This document shows positions 8,713 to 34,039 of a stretch of DNA of 64,000 bases, piece after piece. The stretch comes from Thermococcus peptonophilus (GTDB taxonomy: Archaea > Methanobacteriota_B > Thermococci > Thermococcales > Thermococcaceae), in NCBI RefSeq assembly GCF_001592435.1, contig NZ_CP014750.1, forward strand, positions 62,001-126,000, given 5' to 3'. A model generated the notes under the pieces. It was given only the letters and a program-made list of their open reading frames with translations, was not told the DNA's origin and ran no database searches. Position 1 is the stretch's first letter. Each line of letters starts with the position of its first letter. Made by a program: the position numbers and the translations under genes.

Positions 8713-8979
8713 ATGGGAAAGCTTGAAGACGTTCTGGAGCTGATAAAAGCTGGTGTCACGAACGAGCGTGAAATCGCTGAGAAGCTCGGAATCTCCGTTA
8801 ACGAGGTGGAGGACATCATAAAGATCCTTGAGAGTCTCGGGTACGTTGAGAAAGTGGAGTTCGGCTCAAAGGCTTGCGAGACCTGTCCTTTGAAGAAGGT
8901 CTGCTACGGTTCGTGTTTGAGACCCACCGGAGCTAGAGCGTTCAAACTGACCGAGAAGGCCTTCTCTCTGGAGAAGTAG
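8713..8979 (+). CDS. FeoC-like winged-helix protein with a Cys cluster
   Basis: An 88-residue protein. The first 55 residues are a winged helix (LELIKAGVTNEREIAEKLGISVNEVEDIIKILESLGYVEKVEF, shown here only as a pattern of helix-turn-helix then wing; residues 7-50). Then come four cysteines in C-x2-C-x5-C-x3-C spacing (CETCPLKKVCYGSC), suitable for an iron-sulfur cluster. The same layout is found in bacterial FeoC, and it closes the feo operon 34 bases after feoB. It may regulate FeoB or transcription; which one cannot be told. Confidence 0.75.
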   Translation: MGKLEDVLELIKAGVTNEREIAEKLGISVNEVEDIIKILESLGYVEKVEFGSKACETCPLKKVCYGSCLRPTGARAFKLTEKAFSLEK

Positions 8980-9008
8980 GCCTGCAGGCTATTGTTCACT
9001 GCGAGGGA

Positions 9009-9036
9009 TATATTTTACGGCCGTAAAATATATAAG
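9009..9036 (+). promoter_or_regulatory. 24-base perfect palindrome abutting a TATA box
   Basis: Positions 9009-9032 form a perfect palindrome with the core TTTTACGGCCGTAAAA (9013-9028). The TATA box TATATAAG (9029-9036) overlaps its right end, so a bound regulator would contact the TFB/TBP site. Transcription should start near 9060, just before the ATG at 9068. The same TTTAC-N4-GTAAA element stands in the same place before the TRAP operon TATA box (33081-33094). Confidence 0.65.
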
Positions 9037-9067: not shown

Positions 9068-10309
9068 ATGAAGGCAGTTATTCTTGCGGGTGGTTTTGGA
9101 ACCCGCCTCAGGCCGATTTCTTCAACGAGGCCGAAGCCGATGGTTCCAGTCCTCGGAAAGCCGAACCTCCAGTACCTCCTCGAGAACATTGAGAAGATAC
9201 CCGAGATCGATGAGGTCATTCTCTCAGTCCACTACATGCGCGGCGAGATCAGAGAGTTCATAGACGAGAAGATGGCCGATTATCCAAAGGGTATCCGCTT
9301 CGTAAACGACCCGATGCCCCTTGAGACCGGGGGAGCGCTCAAGAACGTGGAGGAATACGTTAGCGACGATTTCCTGGTTATCTATGGTGACGTGTTCACC
9401 AACTTCAACTTCAGGGAGCTGATAGAGGCCCACAAGAACAACGACGGGCTGATAACGGTCGCGGTAACCAAGGTCTACGACCCGGAGCGCTTTGGTGTCG
9501 TCGAGACTGACGAGAACGGAAAAGTTGTTCACTTCGAGGAGAAGCCCCACAGGCCGAAGACGAACCTCGTGGACGCTGGAATCTACGTCGTGAACAAGAA
9601 AGTCCTTGAGGAGATCCCGAAGGGCAAGGAGGTCTACTTCGAGAGGGAAGTCCTTCCCAAGTTCGTGGCCAGGGGCGAGGTTTACGCATACAGGATGCCC
9701 AGGGATGCATACTGGGTTGACCTTGGAACACCTGACGACCTCTTCTACGCCCACCAGATAGCCATGGACGAGATAGCGAGGGACAATGGCTACATTACCA
9801 TCAGGGAAGGTGCTGAAGTCCCAGAGGACGTTGAAATTCAGGGCCCGGTTTACATCGACGAGGGAGCGAAGATCGGCCACGGTGTCAAGATAAAGGCCTA
9901 CACATACATCGGCCCGAATACAATCGTGGAGGACAAGGCCTACTTTAAGCGCTCGATACTTATTGGCAGCGACATTATCAAAGAGCGTGCCGAGCTGAAG
10001 GACACCATCCTCGGCGAGGGCGTCGTCGTTGGTAAGAACGTAATCATCAAGGAGAACGCCGTCGTCGGCGACTACGCAAAGATAGCTGACGATCTGGTCA
10101 TCTACGGAGCTAAGATACTCCCGTGGAAGAAGGTCGAGGAGTACGAGGCTTACATAAAGATCAAGCTCGATCCGACGAAGGTCAGGCCGGGTCAGTATCC
10201 CGACCGCTGTCCGCTAGGCCTTCCGGAGTGTATCTACAAGAAGTTCAAGGCCATCGCAGGCGAGAAGCCGCCGTGTGACGAGTGTATCGAGAATCAGTGG
10301 CTGTTCTGA
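9068..10309 (+). CDS. Sugar-phosphate nucleotidyltransferase with left-handed beta-helix domain
   Basis: A 413-residue nucleotidyltransferase. The N-terminal Rossmann-like domain starts MKAVILAGGFGTRLRPIS, the G-G-x-G-T-R-L-R-P signature that binds the NTP, and continues with RPKPMVPVLGKPN, DFLVIYGDVFTN and NLVDAGIYVV. From about residue 250 there are hexapeptide repeats (VPEDVEIQGPVYIDEGAKIG, YIGPNTIVED) and a Cys-rich tail (CPLGLPECIYKK, CDECIENQWLF). Mannose-1-phosphate guanylyltransferase is the usual name; glucose-1-phosphate is equally possible. The ATG at 9068 follows GGTGATGCTC. Confidence 0.88.
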   Translation: MKAVILAGGFGTRLRPISSTRPKPMVPVLGKPNLQYLLENIEKIPEIDEVILSVHYMRGEIREFIDEKMADYPKGIRFVNDPMPLETGGALKNVEEYVSDDFLVIYGDVFTNFNFRELIEAHKNNDGLITVAVTKVYDPERFGVVETDENGKVVHFEEKPHRPKTNLVDAGIYVVNKKVLEEIPKGKEVYFEREVLPKFVARGEVYAYRMPRDAYWVDLGTPDDLFYAHQIAMDEIARDNGYITIREGAEVPEDVEIQGPVYIDEGAKIGHGVKIKAYTYIGPNTIVEDKAYFKRSILIGSDIIKERAELKDTILGEGVVVGKNVIIKENAVVGDYAKIADDLVIYGAKILPWKKVEEYEAYIKIKLDPTKVRPGQYPDRCPLGLPECIYKKFKAIAGEKPPCDECIENQWLF

Positions 10310-29210: not shown

Positions 29211-31515
29211 TCAGGAAGAAAGCCTTGCCCCAAAGACCCTAAGGGCTAAGACAAAGACAAAGCTAACCCCAACTATCACTGGATTGAGGGTTGCTGAGAT
29301 AATGCCGAGTGCCCCCGCAAGTCCCCTGACCTCTTTTCTCTGGTGCTTTCCAAACCAGCCGGTCAGCGCTATTGCGAGGAGGTACATCACGAGCAGTGTT
29401 GCACCGAGGTCGTAGAGCACCTGAAGGGCAGTCATCGCGGTCCAGTGCTTGACTGTTATGATGAACATCTCCGGGTGCGTGAAGTAGATGTACGGCCCAA
29501 TGTATCCCGCGAGGGCGTACTTGACCGCGTTCATCGCCGTCTTCCAGAAGTCTCCGCCAGCTAATGCTGAACCGGCGTAGCTCGCAAGTGCAACAGGGGG
29601 AGTAACGTCGGCAAGGATTCCGAAGTAGAATACGAAGAAGTGTGCCGCCAGCAGTGCTATTGGAGTTGCAAATCCTGGAACAGGGTCTGAGTACGGGTAG
29701 AGACCCTGGACGGCGTTGAATATGGCCGGAGCCGCAACTAAAGAGGTTATGATGTAGTTGGCCGTCGTTGGAACGCCCATTCCAAGGATGAGGCTGAAGA
29801 CCATCGTGAGCATCAGCAGGAGCCAGAGGTTGCCCGCTGTGAGGTCAACGAGGCGATAGCCGAGACTCGTGACGAGGCCGGTCATAGTGAGGACACCCTG
29901 TATAAGGCCTGCGCTCGCCGCCGCAAGCATGACGCTCGTGCTCGTCTTTCCAGCGTCTATCATGGACTCGTAGGTAGCCCGGTACATTGCCCGCCCATCT
30001 TCGCTCTTCGAGTACCAGCCGATGATGAGGGAGAAAATTATGCCGAAGACACCACTGAGCAGGAGTATCTGCTCCTTTGTCATTCCTATGTACTTGGTCA
30101 GGGCTATGAAGAGGAGGAAGAGTGCCGTTATGTAGAACTTCTCGTTGAACTCGACCTTGTCGCTTATGAATCCTACGGCAGCAAGTCCGAGGAGGATCAT
30201 GAGCGAGAGCCCAGCGACAGGGGTGGCCAGGGTTTTGCCCGTGAACATCAGGGTGGTTGCGAGCAGGACAACAGCAACGTAGAGCCCCTCGTGGCCCTTT
30301 ATGTTGTCCTTTGAAATCCAGGCAACCCAGATGGCCACGCCGAGGGATGAAATTGCCGAGATGTGCGGCGGAATACCCCAGACTAAGGCGACGGTGATGA
30401 CAACTATTGGCAGGAGAATGTAGAGCTTCCTTATGAAGTAGTCAAGGCCTGAGAAGTGCTCCCGCGGCATTCCCTTGAGGCCGAGTCTCTTGGTCTCGAG
30501 GTCAATGAAGAGGTAAACGCCTGCGTAGTAGACGAGCGCCGGGATAACGGCGGCTATGATGAGCTTGTTGTAGGGAACCCCAAGGAACTCCGCCATGATG
30601 AAGGCCGCAGCGCCCATGATCGGTGGCATTAGCTGGCCGCCAGTTGAGGCAACGGGCTCAACGGCACCGGCTATTTCAGGTGGATAGCCTTGCCTTCTTC
30701 ATCAGCGGTATGGTGAAAGTTCCTGTAGTCAGGACGTTGGCGACGCTTGAACCGCTCACCGTTCCCATCAGGCCGCTGGAGATGACGGCGGCTTTTGCCG
30801 GTCCACCGGGTCTCGAACCGAAGAGCGTTATCATGAACTCCGTTATGTAGTCGCTTATGCCTATCTTCAGCAGGAAAGCGCCGAAGAACACGAAGGCGAA
30901 GACGTATATCGTCATGACGAAGAACGGTATGCCGAAGATTCCCTCGTCGAAGTAGAGTTGCTGAGTAAAGCGTATCCAGTCAAACCCTATGTTGTGGATG
31001 CCGTAGGCGAGGAACACGACAACGACCGCTGGAAGAACCCATCCAAGAACCCTCCTCGTTGCCTCGAGGACGAGGATTATGGCTAGGATTCCAAAGATGA
31101 CATCGGTGGTATAAACGTCGGCAAACTCGGCGTACCTCTGATAGACGACGAAGAGATAGAGAGACGAGATCGCACCGAGTATGGCCAGAACATAATCGTA
31201 CCACTGAACCTTTTGAAGGTACTTCTCCTTTCGCCTTATTGGGTAGAGCAGGTAGGTGATTATGAGTATCATGGCCAGGACGAAGGCCTCGCCCTGCTTT
31301 GTCTGGAAAGTCGCCTGGAGGATTCCGATCCTTATCCCCATCTTCTGGAACATGTCGTAGAGGGTGTAGTTGAAGTTGAAGATGAACAGTATTTCGTAGA
31401 TACCTATCAGGATCGCGGCTGTTTTAACGACGTTATCGAGCATTGGGGGAAGAGTTCTAATTCTCTCTATAACGACTTCCTTGGCCTTCTCAAACTGTGG
31501 CGGTTCTTCACCCAT
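29211..31515 (-). pseudogene. TAXI-type TRAP transporter fused permease, frameshifted
   Basis: One gene split in two by an extra base. The upstream part (31515 to a stop at 30676-30678) holds the small-subunit-like helices and the start of the large DctM-like domain, ending SSVANVLTTGTFTIPLMKKA then RLST and stop. The other frame continues without a break with GYPPEIAGAVEPVASTGGQL followed by MPPIMGAAAFIMAEFLGVP. Removing 30690 joins the frames into a 767-residue protein of normal TRAP fused-permease size. Both parts otherwise look intact, so this is a recent mutation, a sequencing error or recoding. GGGAGGTG precedes ATG 31515. Confidence 0.88.
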
Positions 31516-31517
31516 TA

Positions 31518-31970
31518 TCAGCACCTCCCAATCGCAGTCAGCAGTATAGGACATGATTTGATCTGAAACTTAATCAATGTATCGGAGCGAGGAGCAAAGG
31601 CAAGGGAACCGTCAACCGTTATGTTAGCTTGGTTTACCGGGATGAACCAGTAGTCAAGGCTCTTTCCGAGATAGATGTTGATCCTCTTCTCGTACCAGCT
31701 CCCGTTCCAGTCCTGGAAGTCCTCTGGAAGGCCAGCACCGAAGTCCTTCCACTTCATGCCAGTTGCGTAGATGCCACTCCGGTTTACCACCAGCGTCTCT
31801 ATCACCTCACTCCGCTCCACGCTGTGGATGTACTCTATCGTTATCTCGTGCTCACCCAGGGGATACACCTTCTCGGCCTTCCCATCCGTTATCACGAGAA
31901 CACTCCTCTCAGCAACAGAGAAAACCAGTAAAATCAAGAAGAATGTCAAAAAAAGAAAGGACTTCCTCAA
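31518..31970 (-). CDS. DUF1850 protein of the TRAP operon
   Basis: A 150-residue protein with one N-terminal hydrophobic segment (FLFLTFFLILLVFSVAE, signal or anchor). It is followed by a beta-rich domain with EKVYPLGEHEITIEYIHSVERSEVIE, the DUF1850 hallmark in which His-Ser-Val-Glu is conserved. Genes of this family commonly lie between the TAXI receptor and the fused permease, as here; the role is unknown, probably extracytoplasmic. The start is the TTG at 31970, five bases after GGTGA, or the GTG at 31979. The stop is three bases above the permease start. Confidence 0.82.
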   Translation of the reverse strand: MRKSFLFLTFFLILLVFSVAERSVLVITDGKAEKVYPLGEHEITIEYIHSVERSEVIETLVVNRSGIYATGMKWKDFGAGLPEDFQDWNGSWYEKRINIYLGKSLDYWFIPVNQANITVDGSLAFAPRSDTLIKFQIKSCPILLTAIGRC

Positions 31971-31982
31971 ATACCTCACCCA

Positions 31983-32993
31983 TCACGGTTTAAGCTTGTC
32001 CGGGACCTTTATGCCCTTCTCCTCGTAGAACTTAATCGCTCCTGGGTGGAGCGGGATGCTCATACCATCGAGGGCCGTGTCGAGGCTTATGTACTTGGTC
32101 TTGGCGTGTACCTTGTGAAGCTCGGCGAGGTTGTTCGGGTCGAAGAGTATCTTGGTCATCTGGTAGACGACGTCATCTGGAAGGTCGGCGCTGACGGCGA
32201 GGATTGCCTTAACGGCAACGGTCGGGGTGTCCTCAGTCATGCCGTTGTAGGTGTCCTTCGGAAGAACCTGCCTGACGTAGAATATGTATCCCTGGTCATG
32301 GAGCTTGTTGAGGATGTCGTCCGGAATCGGGAGAACCCTGACCGGGGTCTGGACGGCTATCTGGTTAACGGCCGGGGTTGGGGCACCGGAGACGATAACA
32401 GCGGCATCTATCTGGCCGACCTTAAGGCTCTGAGCGGCCTCGCTGAACTTCTGGTTGACCTTCTGAATGCTGTCCCAGACGCCAGCTGCCTTGAGTATCT
32501 GCTCGGCGGCAACTGCAGTACCGCTTCCTGCGGCACCTATGGCAACCTTCTTACCGGCGAGATCCTGGAGAGACTTAATGTCGCTGTCCGCCCTTACGAC
32601 GAACTGGATGGTCTCAGGGTAAAGCGCCGCGACACCGCGTATGTTCTTAACGGCCTGTCCTTGGAACATGTAGAGGCCGTTGTAGGCGTAGTAGGCTATA
32701 TCGTTCTGGAGAATAGCTGCCTGAGCCTTTCCTTCGCCGATGGCCTTGGCGTTGGTAACGCTGGCACCGCTCGTAACTGCCTTGGCCTTTATACCGTTCT
32801 TATTGAGTATCTCGGCATACTTAGAGCCAAGCGGGAAGTAGACACCGCTGGTTCCACCGGTGTAGATTGTAATGGTTCCGCTGTACGTTGCCTTAGTTTC
32901 GGAGGAGGCTGTTTCACCCCCTCCACCAATGCAACCGCTGGCCACAAGAGCAAAGACCAAAAGGGCCACGAGGCCTAGAGCTTTCATCTTCAT
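31983..32993 (-). CDS. TAXI-family TRAP transporter solute receptor (lipoprotein)
   Basis: A 336-residue periplasmic-binding-type protein anchored outside the membrane. The signal peptide MKMKALGLVALLVFALVASGC ends in a lipobox with Cys at about residue 21, followed by a Gly/Ser/Thr-rich linker. The mature domain has TITIYTGGTSGVYFPLGSKY near the start, the TAXI signature, then VKNIRGVAALYPE, LAGKKVAIGAAGSGTAVAAE and DAAVIVSGAPTPAVN. The ligand, probably a small carboxylate or amino acid, is not readable. ATG 32993 follows GAGGTGGAGAAA. It heads the operon. Confidence 0.9.
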   Translation of the reverse strand: MKMKALGLVALLVFALVASGCIGGGGETASSETKATYSGTITIYTGGTSGVYFPLGSKYAEILNKNGIKAKAVTSGASVTNAKAIGEGKAQAAILQNDIAYYAYNGLYMFQGQAVKNIRGVAALYPETIQFVVRADSDIKSLQDLAGKKVAIGAAGSGTAVAAEQILKAAGVWDSIQKVNQKFSEAAQSLKVGQIDAAVIVSGAPTPAVNQIAVQTPVRVLPIPDDILNKLHDQGYIFYVRQVLPKDTYNGMTEDTPTVAVKAILAVSADLPDDVVYQMTKILFDPNNLAELHKVHAKTKYISLDTALDGMSIPLHPGAIKFYEEKGIKVPDKLKP

Positions 32994-33070
32994 TTTCTCC
33001 ACCTCATTCTTCATTTATGTTCATTCAAATATGCTAAAGTGCATTTCAGAACATTTTTATCTTGGAGCAC

Positions 33071-33112
33071 GGTTATATACTTTACGGTTGTAAACTTTTA
33101 CGCGACTGTAAA
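33071..33112 (-). promoter_or_regulatory. TRAP operon promoter with two TTTAC...GTAAA palindromes
   Basis: Read on the minus strand: TTTAC-N6-GTAAA (33112-33097), then TTTACAACCGTAAA (33094-33081), then directly the TATA element GTATATAACC (33080-33071). Transcription should start near 33050, giving a leader of roughly 55 bases. The second palindrome has the same TTTAC-N4-GTAAA form and the same contact with the TATA box as the site at 9013-9028. Confidence 0.6.
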
Positions 33113-33294: not shown

Positions 33295-34029
33295 TCAATC
33301 ACTCCTCACTATTATCTCAATTTTCTTGCCTTCACGGTAGCCCTTCATCGCTGACAGCATGCCCTTTATTGTCTTCTCTACGAGCTCCTGAACCCAGTCC
33401 TTCATGGGAAGAACCTGTCCGTCTATCTTGACAATGACTTTCGGCTTCTGGCTAAGGACAACGCAGTCCTGGGTGGTCTTTTCGCCTCTCACTATCATCC
33501 TCGCCATCTCAGCACAGCGGAAGCCGCAGAGGCCGCAATCAATGTTAGGGAGCATGAAGGCCTTCTCTTCCACTAGGTCTGCGAGTTTTTCTGGCTCTCT
33601 GGTGGCATCGATAACTGGGAGGCCTTTGATTTTGGTTATCTCCCTCGATGCAACAACTCCGCTAACCGCTATGGCAAGTCCTTTGTCAAGTTCTTCGACT
33701 TCTTCTGGCGCTCTAGCACAAACTACCCTCGGAACGTGCTCCACAGACTTGAATCCCTCAAGGAGCAGAAAATCAGCGCTGACCATTGAGAAGAGCGCGT
33801 TTATGTCCTTGGCTTTGAAGAGAATGGCATCAGTATCCTCTGCCCTAACCAGAACGGCGTCGGCCACTCGGGAAAACCGCCAAGTGTCAGTGCCTTTCCT
33901 GTCGAACTCCGCGTGCATGCTCTTCGCTATTGCCACCCTGTAACCCCTCTCCTTGAGAACTCTGGCGACGGCCTCTACTGTGGTCGTCTTCCCGCTCTTC
34001 TTGTAGCCCACAAACGCTACCGCTCTCAT
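33295..34029 (-). CDS. mobB: Molybdopterin-guanine dinucleotide biosynthesis protein MobB, with Cys cluster
   Basis: A 244-residue P-loop protein. The N-terminal GTP-binding domain has AVAFVGYKKSGKTTTVEAVARVL, SMHAEFDRKGTDTWRFSR and DFLLLEGFKSVEHVPRVV, typical of MobB, which helps attach nucleotide to the molybdenum or tungsten pterin cofactor. A C-terminal extension carries DCGLCGFRCAEMA and a later Cys in TTQDCVV (about residues 168-190), suitable for an Fe-S cluster. Thermococcales depend on tungstopterin enzymes. ATG 34029 follows GAGGTGCCTGCG. It is 11 bases after the LSm gene. Confidence 0.87.
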   Translation of the reverse strand: MRAVAFVGYKKSGKTTTVEAVARVLKERGYRVAIAKSMHAEFDRKGTDTWRFSRVADAVLVRAEDTDAILFKAKDINALFSMVSADFLLLEGFKSVEHVPRVVCARAPEEVEELDKGLAIAVSGVVASREITKIKGLPVIDATREPEKLADLVEEKAFMLPNIDCGLCGFRCAEMARMIVRGEKTTQDCVVLSQKPKVIVKIDGQVLPMKDWVQELVEKTIKGMLSAMKGYREGKKIEIIVRSD

Positions 34030-34039
34030 CGCAGGCACC

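Follow-up and report, generated by a model that had tools for sequence, protein, structure and literature searches.

A conserved palindrome at a nucleotidyltransferase promoter of Thermococcus suggests a putative regulator, probably acting by repression, of genes for acyl-CoA metabolism, gluconeogenesis and sugar nucleotides

We analysed a stretch of 64,000 nucleotides (the window) from the 1.9-Mb genome of Thermococcus peptonophilus, labelled G000 in the comparisons below. The window carries a gene for a sugar-1-phosphate nucleotidyltransferase (NTase), a protein which reached no NCBIfam cut-off, and an operon for a TAXI-type TRAP transporter. The features of the two promoters are as follows.

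9008-9033, no strand: ATATATTTTACGGCCGTAAAATATAT, a perfect palindrome of 26 bp and the proposed operator; conserved in all 57 NTase promoters read from the genus
9013-9028, no strand: core TTTTAC-GGCC-GTAAAA, common to the ACS, GAPDH, PhnP-like and OGOR promoters described below
9023-9027, plus strand: right arm GTAAA of the palindrome, also a consensus BRE, the recognition element for TFB (consensus from PMC10746257)
9029-9035, plus strand: TATATAA, TATA box of the NTase gene
9068-10309, plus strand: NTase with hexapeptide repeats (Pfam NTP_transferase, 1.1e-48)
31983-33014, minus strand: TAXI-type TRAP solute-binding protein (TIGR02122, 4.9e-97; Pfam NMT1_3)
33073-33079, minus strand: TATATAA, TATA box of the TRAP operon
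33081-33094, no strand: N4 site of the TRAP promoter, TTTACGGTTGTAAA, a form not conserved (5 of 48 orthologous promoters)
33097-33112, no strand: TTTAC-N6-GTAAA, the recurrent TRAP promoter form (N6 in 25 of 48 orthologous promoters)

Three neighbouring features are recorded here as separate observations. The gene after feoB, at 8713-8979 (plus strand), ends 28 bp before the palindrome and encodes a small DNA-binding protein of the winged-helix type that has a cysteine cluster. Upstream of the TRAP operon, at 33295-34038 (minus strand), a MobB/FeS fusion protein is encoded. The TRAP permease gene at 29211-31554 (minus strand) is split over two reading frames with a break near 30680-30700, a region read through in one frame in G012, in G008, in the group of G043 (L043) and in L049; the split could be a frameshift, a sequencing error or the mark of a disabled transporter.

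The earlier note had reported TTTAC-N4-GTAAA at both promoters, and the motif is indeed real: it occurs exactly twice in the window, at 9014-9027 and 33081-33094, against 0.02 places expected from dinucleotide shuffling, and no shuffle out of 100 contained two. This overstates the surprise, since the GTAAA arm is itself a consensus BRE and one arm of each palindrome is thus core promoter. The NTase site does sit inside a perfect palindrome, the only one of at least 18 bp in the window, which measures 26 bp rather than the 24 first given. It had also been described as directly touching TATATAA, which is not the case, as one base intervenes at both promoters (GTAAA-A-TATATAA at the NTase and GTAAA-G-TATATAA at the TRAP operon); the claim of a nearly equal distance can be sharpened, the register being identical. 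The archaeal BRE consensus in these organisms is G/C(A/T)AAA (PMC10746257), so that the needs of a promoter already account for a GTAAA arm beside a TATA box. What is informative in each palindrome is the far arm.

At the NTase promoter the far arm is kept. All 57 promoters read from the genus (g1) carry TTT(T/A)A(C/T) at a constant place, with 38 loci of the form TTTTAY-N4-GTAAAA, 16 with TTTAAY and three with a changed right arm. No variation was seen in columns -18 to -14 and in column -12 among the 52 distinct sequences, whereas columns -29 to -25, just upstream of the element, hold 0.08-0.49 bits. The more distant column -30 likewise shows conservation (1.45 bits), for which we offer no explanation. 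Outside the genus 30 of 31 matches were taken in and counted by eye; one of these 30, L354, could not be anchored. The left arm was not found in the NTase promoters of two sister genera (0/9 in g3 and 0/6 in g5), where BRE and TATA box are kept. An exact left arm is present in the one g6 genome, and variant arms occur at both g2 loci and at 10 of 12 g4 loci; of the other two g4 loci, L357 lacks the arm and L354 is the unanchored one. To judge from these alignments, the far arm is dispensable for promoter function, yet it is kept across the genus, which supports the view of the NTase palindrome as an operator-like element under conservation; that a regulator binds it is our proposal.

The TRAP promoter presents a different picture. 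The earlier note had implied one regulator for both promoters from their shared geometry, and the same motif would then be expected at both in related species, which was not upheld: against 57/57 at the NTase, the N4 form TTTAC-N4-GTAAA was found in only 5 of 48 orthologous TRAP promoters. None of the 48 carried the longer TTTTAC-N4-GTAAAA, and 25 carried TTTAC-N6-GTAA. These 48 promoters came from 49 matching genomes, G051 being left out because its match was partial; L132, mis-anchored by the script, was read as N6 by eye. When spacers of 0 to 14 bases were scanned, only 6 (25 promoters), 4 (5) and 12 (3) occurred. Across the genus, GATTTAC-N6-GTAA lies just upstream of the TRAP gene, judged by coordinates, in 23 of the 49 matches listed. 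The T. peptonophilus promoter itself carries the N6 form next to its N4 site (33097-33112), a neighbour that the earlier note did not mention. The simplest reading of these sequences is that the TRAP promoter has a separate operator with similar half-sites, and that in a few species its BRE completes an N4 palindrome. The TRAP operon is thus probably under a different factor than the NTase gene.

Two further features of TRAP promoters were noticed in passing. Many of them (L051-L058, L061-L066 and others) contain a second inverted repeat, similar to ATGGCCAT, downstream of the TATA box, which T. peptonophilus lacks. In G057 (L038, one of the 48 promoters counted) the TRAP gene has no recognisable promoter of the usual kind, and its signal-peptide start is missing as well.

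What did recur was the outer form of the NTase core. In 61 genomes of the genus, TTTTACNNNNGTAAAA (TTTTAC-N4-GTAAAA) was found at 60 places, against five for the reversed control, where related genomes are not independent observations. Gene groups were assigned by hand from coordinates and ORF starts, and 55 of the 60 places fell into five promoter groups, the remaining five lying in coding DNA. The groups are the promoters of the ADP-forming acetyl-CoA synthetase alpha subunit (ACS-alpha, 22 places), the NTase (18), type II GAPDH (13), a PhnP-like metallo-hydrolase (1) and the delta subunit of 2-oxoglutarate:ferredoxin oxidoreductase (OGOR, 1). Reading individual promoters extended these groups. 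For ACS-alpha, with 30 of 88 matches read, all from g1, TTTTAY-N4-RTAAAA was present exactly in 17 promoters and a form within one base of TTTTAC-N4-GTAAAA in seven more, and no site was recognisable in two (L364, L369). For GAPDH, with 30 of 86 matches read, TTTTAY-N4-RTAAAA was present in 16 of 17 promoters of g1, one of five of g4 and none of four in either g5 or g3; the site of T. peptonophilus itself is TTTTACAGCCATAAAA, in gene direction. The OGOR site occurs in a slightly different form in four genomes (G034, G039, G040, G051), and the PhnP-like site differs by a single arm base in G000, G015 and G017 and in both arms in G012. Taken together, sites are present in g1, g2, g6 and most g4 genomes, and absent from g3 and g5.

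The sites share a biased centre, with AG following TTTTAC in one orientation in most of them, and the four central bases are gene-specific. Their position also varies: the site lies over the BRE at the NTase, and between the TATA box and the start codon at ACS, GAPDH, PhnP-like and OGOR. The stricter composite pattern TTTAYNNNNRTAAANYATWTAA was found in the 61 genomes only at the NTase, the TRAP promoter (five genomes) and OGOR (four genomes, with the TATA box on the other strand), as assigned by coordinates and context. Two candidate members, inositol-1-phosphate synthase and a gene which we take to be fructose-bisphosphatase-like, were not counted, as in each the palindrome overlaps a TATA-like stretch. 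A scan of three genomes that allowed one mismatch gave 8, 5 and 11 places against 8, 7 and 3 for the control, and is too noisy to be used alone.

Within the complete T. peptonophilus genome, exact TTTAC-N4-GTAAA occurs at six places (two for the reversed control), five of them intergenic and one within an ORF. A position at most five bases upstream of a TATA box, for which the earlier note had proposed a genome scan, holds for three of the six, namely the NTase, the TRAP operon and a site at 534686, and not for the others. The last of these (G000:C1:534686) lies on the strand opposite nadB, upstream of an ORF for a conserved membrane peptide of 25 residues that is also found in G015. There TTTTACAAACGTAAAG adjoins a TTTTAAA box (L004, L238; L242 in G015) in the same geometry as at the NTase promoter. 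In two genomes an IF-2B-family gene and a divergent aminotransferase gene flank a further site, CTTTACAAACGTAAAA (G000:C1:584351, L005/L240; L230 in G012).

Several explanations other than a shared operator have to be weighed. The palindromes could be accidents, in which an AT-rich stretch upstream of a consensus BRE and TATA box happens to mirror them. GTAAA as a legitimate BRE (PMC10746257) accounts for half of each palindrome, and this would suit the TRAP N4 site, which may be a product of chance. For the NTase it is refuted by the conservation of the left arm, which is invariant while the columns just upstream drift, and as a general account we regard it as very improbable. The NTase palindrome could instead be a back-to-back bidirectional core promoter, made of two BRE-TATA units around a common centre, of which the left one drives an antisense or non-coding transcript. 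A mirror TATA is in fact present at 33 of the 57 NTase loci, and the composite pattern appears on both strands in many genomes. However, when the left neighbours were read, no consistent divergent ORF was seen; they are feoB and the small winged-helix gene, which run in the same direction, although many of the 57 loci are short stretches. Moreover, the mirror TATA is gone from G007, from G020 and from the TTTAAY group, all of which retain the core arm, and the same core stands downstream of the TATA box at ACS, GAPDH and OGOR with no mirror TATA. We therefore set this explanation aside as improbable.

The remaining alternatives concern how many regulators there are. A single one acting on both the NTase and the TRAP operon would have to tolerate spacers of either four or six bases (N4, N6) as well as outer bases that differ. 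In its favour, the half-sites are identical, as is their register to TATATAA in T. peptonophilus, and organic acids could be a common theme of OGOR and a TAXI transporter. The reading in the earlier note is supported in part: the NTase site behaves like an operator, and its core recurs at a small, coherent set of other promoters in the genus. Nevertheless, the rarity of N4, the absence of the outer T/A form and the prevalence of N6 at TRAP promoters led us to drop the shared NTase-TRAP regulator as the leading idea, and we now consider it unlikely, if a little less so than the bidirectional promoter. Slightly more credible, though still unlikely, is that different regulators, whose AT-rich palindromes resemble one another, act at the NTase, ACS and GAPDH sites. 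This would fit the differing positions relative to TATA, the gene-specific centres and the dominance of TTTAAY variants at the NTase only. Against it stand the same twelve specified bases and the same spacing, the fact that five promoter groups account for 55 of the 60 places, and the joint absence of the NTase and GAPDH sites from g3 and g5, as would result if a single regulator had been lost or were lacking there. Genus g4 fits such a single loss less well, as the NTase variant is common there and the GAPDH site rare.

A literature search by motif and target genes, most subscription papers lying outside its scope, returned no paper on a TTTTAC-N4-GTAAAA site; a RegPrecise prediction is possible. 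The palindrome of the heat-shock regulator Phr probably differs from TTTTAC-N4-GTAAAA, and the latter was not found in the hsp20 promoter of T. peptonophilus. Phr is alike in being a repressor with a palindromic site at Thermococcales promoters (PMC10746257). The regulator Tgr (TrmBL1) also resembles the present case, its TGM palindrome lying upstream or downstream of BRE/TATA in carbon-metabolism promoters with GAPDH among the targets. Its motif, given as TATCAC-N5-GTGATA in PMC4706686, differs in both half-site and spacing, and neither window site, each of them TTTAC-N4-GTAAA, matches it. GAPDH promoters (for example L299-L306, and that of T. peptonophilus) carry a TGM-like TTTCAC-N5-GTGAAA upstream of the TATA box and a site of the TTTTAC-N4-GTAAAA type directly downstream. 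Tar (TK0271) likewise uses a palindrome beside BRE/TATA, at biosynthetic operons in Thermococcus, but its site, TGGACA-N8-TGTCCA, is of another sequence and spacing and it activates from upstream of the BRE (PMC6737238). The Tar motif was not found in 9008-9033 or 33073-33112.

We lean towards the explanation that the palindrome before the NTase gene is the operator of a dimeric repressor common to the ACS-alpha, GAPDH, PhnP-like and OGOR promoters, with the TRAP operon probably separate. On the evidence of sites and gene contexts, TTTTAC-N4-GTAAAA would be bound by a dimer, and the same dimer would act at the ACS-alpha, type II GAPDH and PhnP-like promoters, and at OGOR in some species. When bound it would cover the BRE at the NTase and, at its partners, the DNA that immediately follows the TATA box, hindering TFB or RNA polymerase, so that repression is the most likely outcome. 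For the downstream group (ACS, GAPDH, PhnP-like, OGOR), repression is favoured by analogy with TrmBL1, which repressed in nine of nine templates from sites downstream of BRE/TATA and activated in two of three from upstream (PMC4706686). For the NTase, repression was chosen because the operator covers the BRE, though the effect may instead be activation. We infer that a single factor, answering to acyl-CoA or gluconeogenic carbon flow, may couple acyl-CoA/2-oxoacid, gluconeogenic and sugar-nucleotide steps. Several points weigh against this explanation: the position of the site differs, 16 of the 57 NTase promoters have TTTAAY as their arm, two of 30 ACS promoters show no recognisable site, g4 fits less well, the genomes compared are related, and the one-mismatch scan was noisy.

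A broader version, which we put forward tentatively and hold with somewhat less confidence, is that a global regulator in part of the Thermococcaceae represses acyl-CoA/2-oxoacid, gluconeogenic and sugar-nucleotide genes, forms a second layer over Tgr at GAPDH, and competes with TFB for the BRE bases at the NTase.

The likely partners of the NTase site are thus ACS-alpha, GAPDH, the PhnP-like hydrolase and OGOR, not the TRAP operon. In archaea, few regulons have been followed all the way from their sensor to their targets, and the sites described here offer a ready probe for the missing regulator in the genetically tractable Thermococcus, while predicting which carbon genes should change together. 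The NTase promoter, furthermore, provides a clean natural case of a putative regulator site and a BRE on the same bases.
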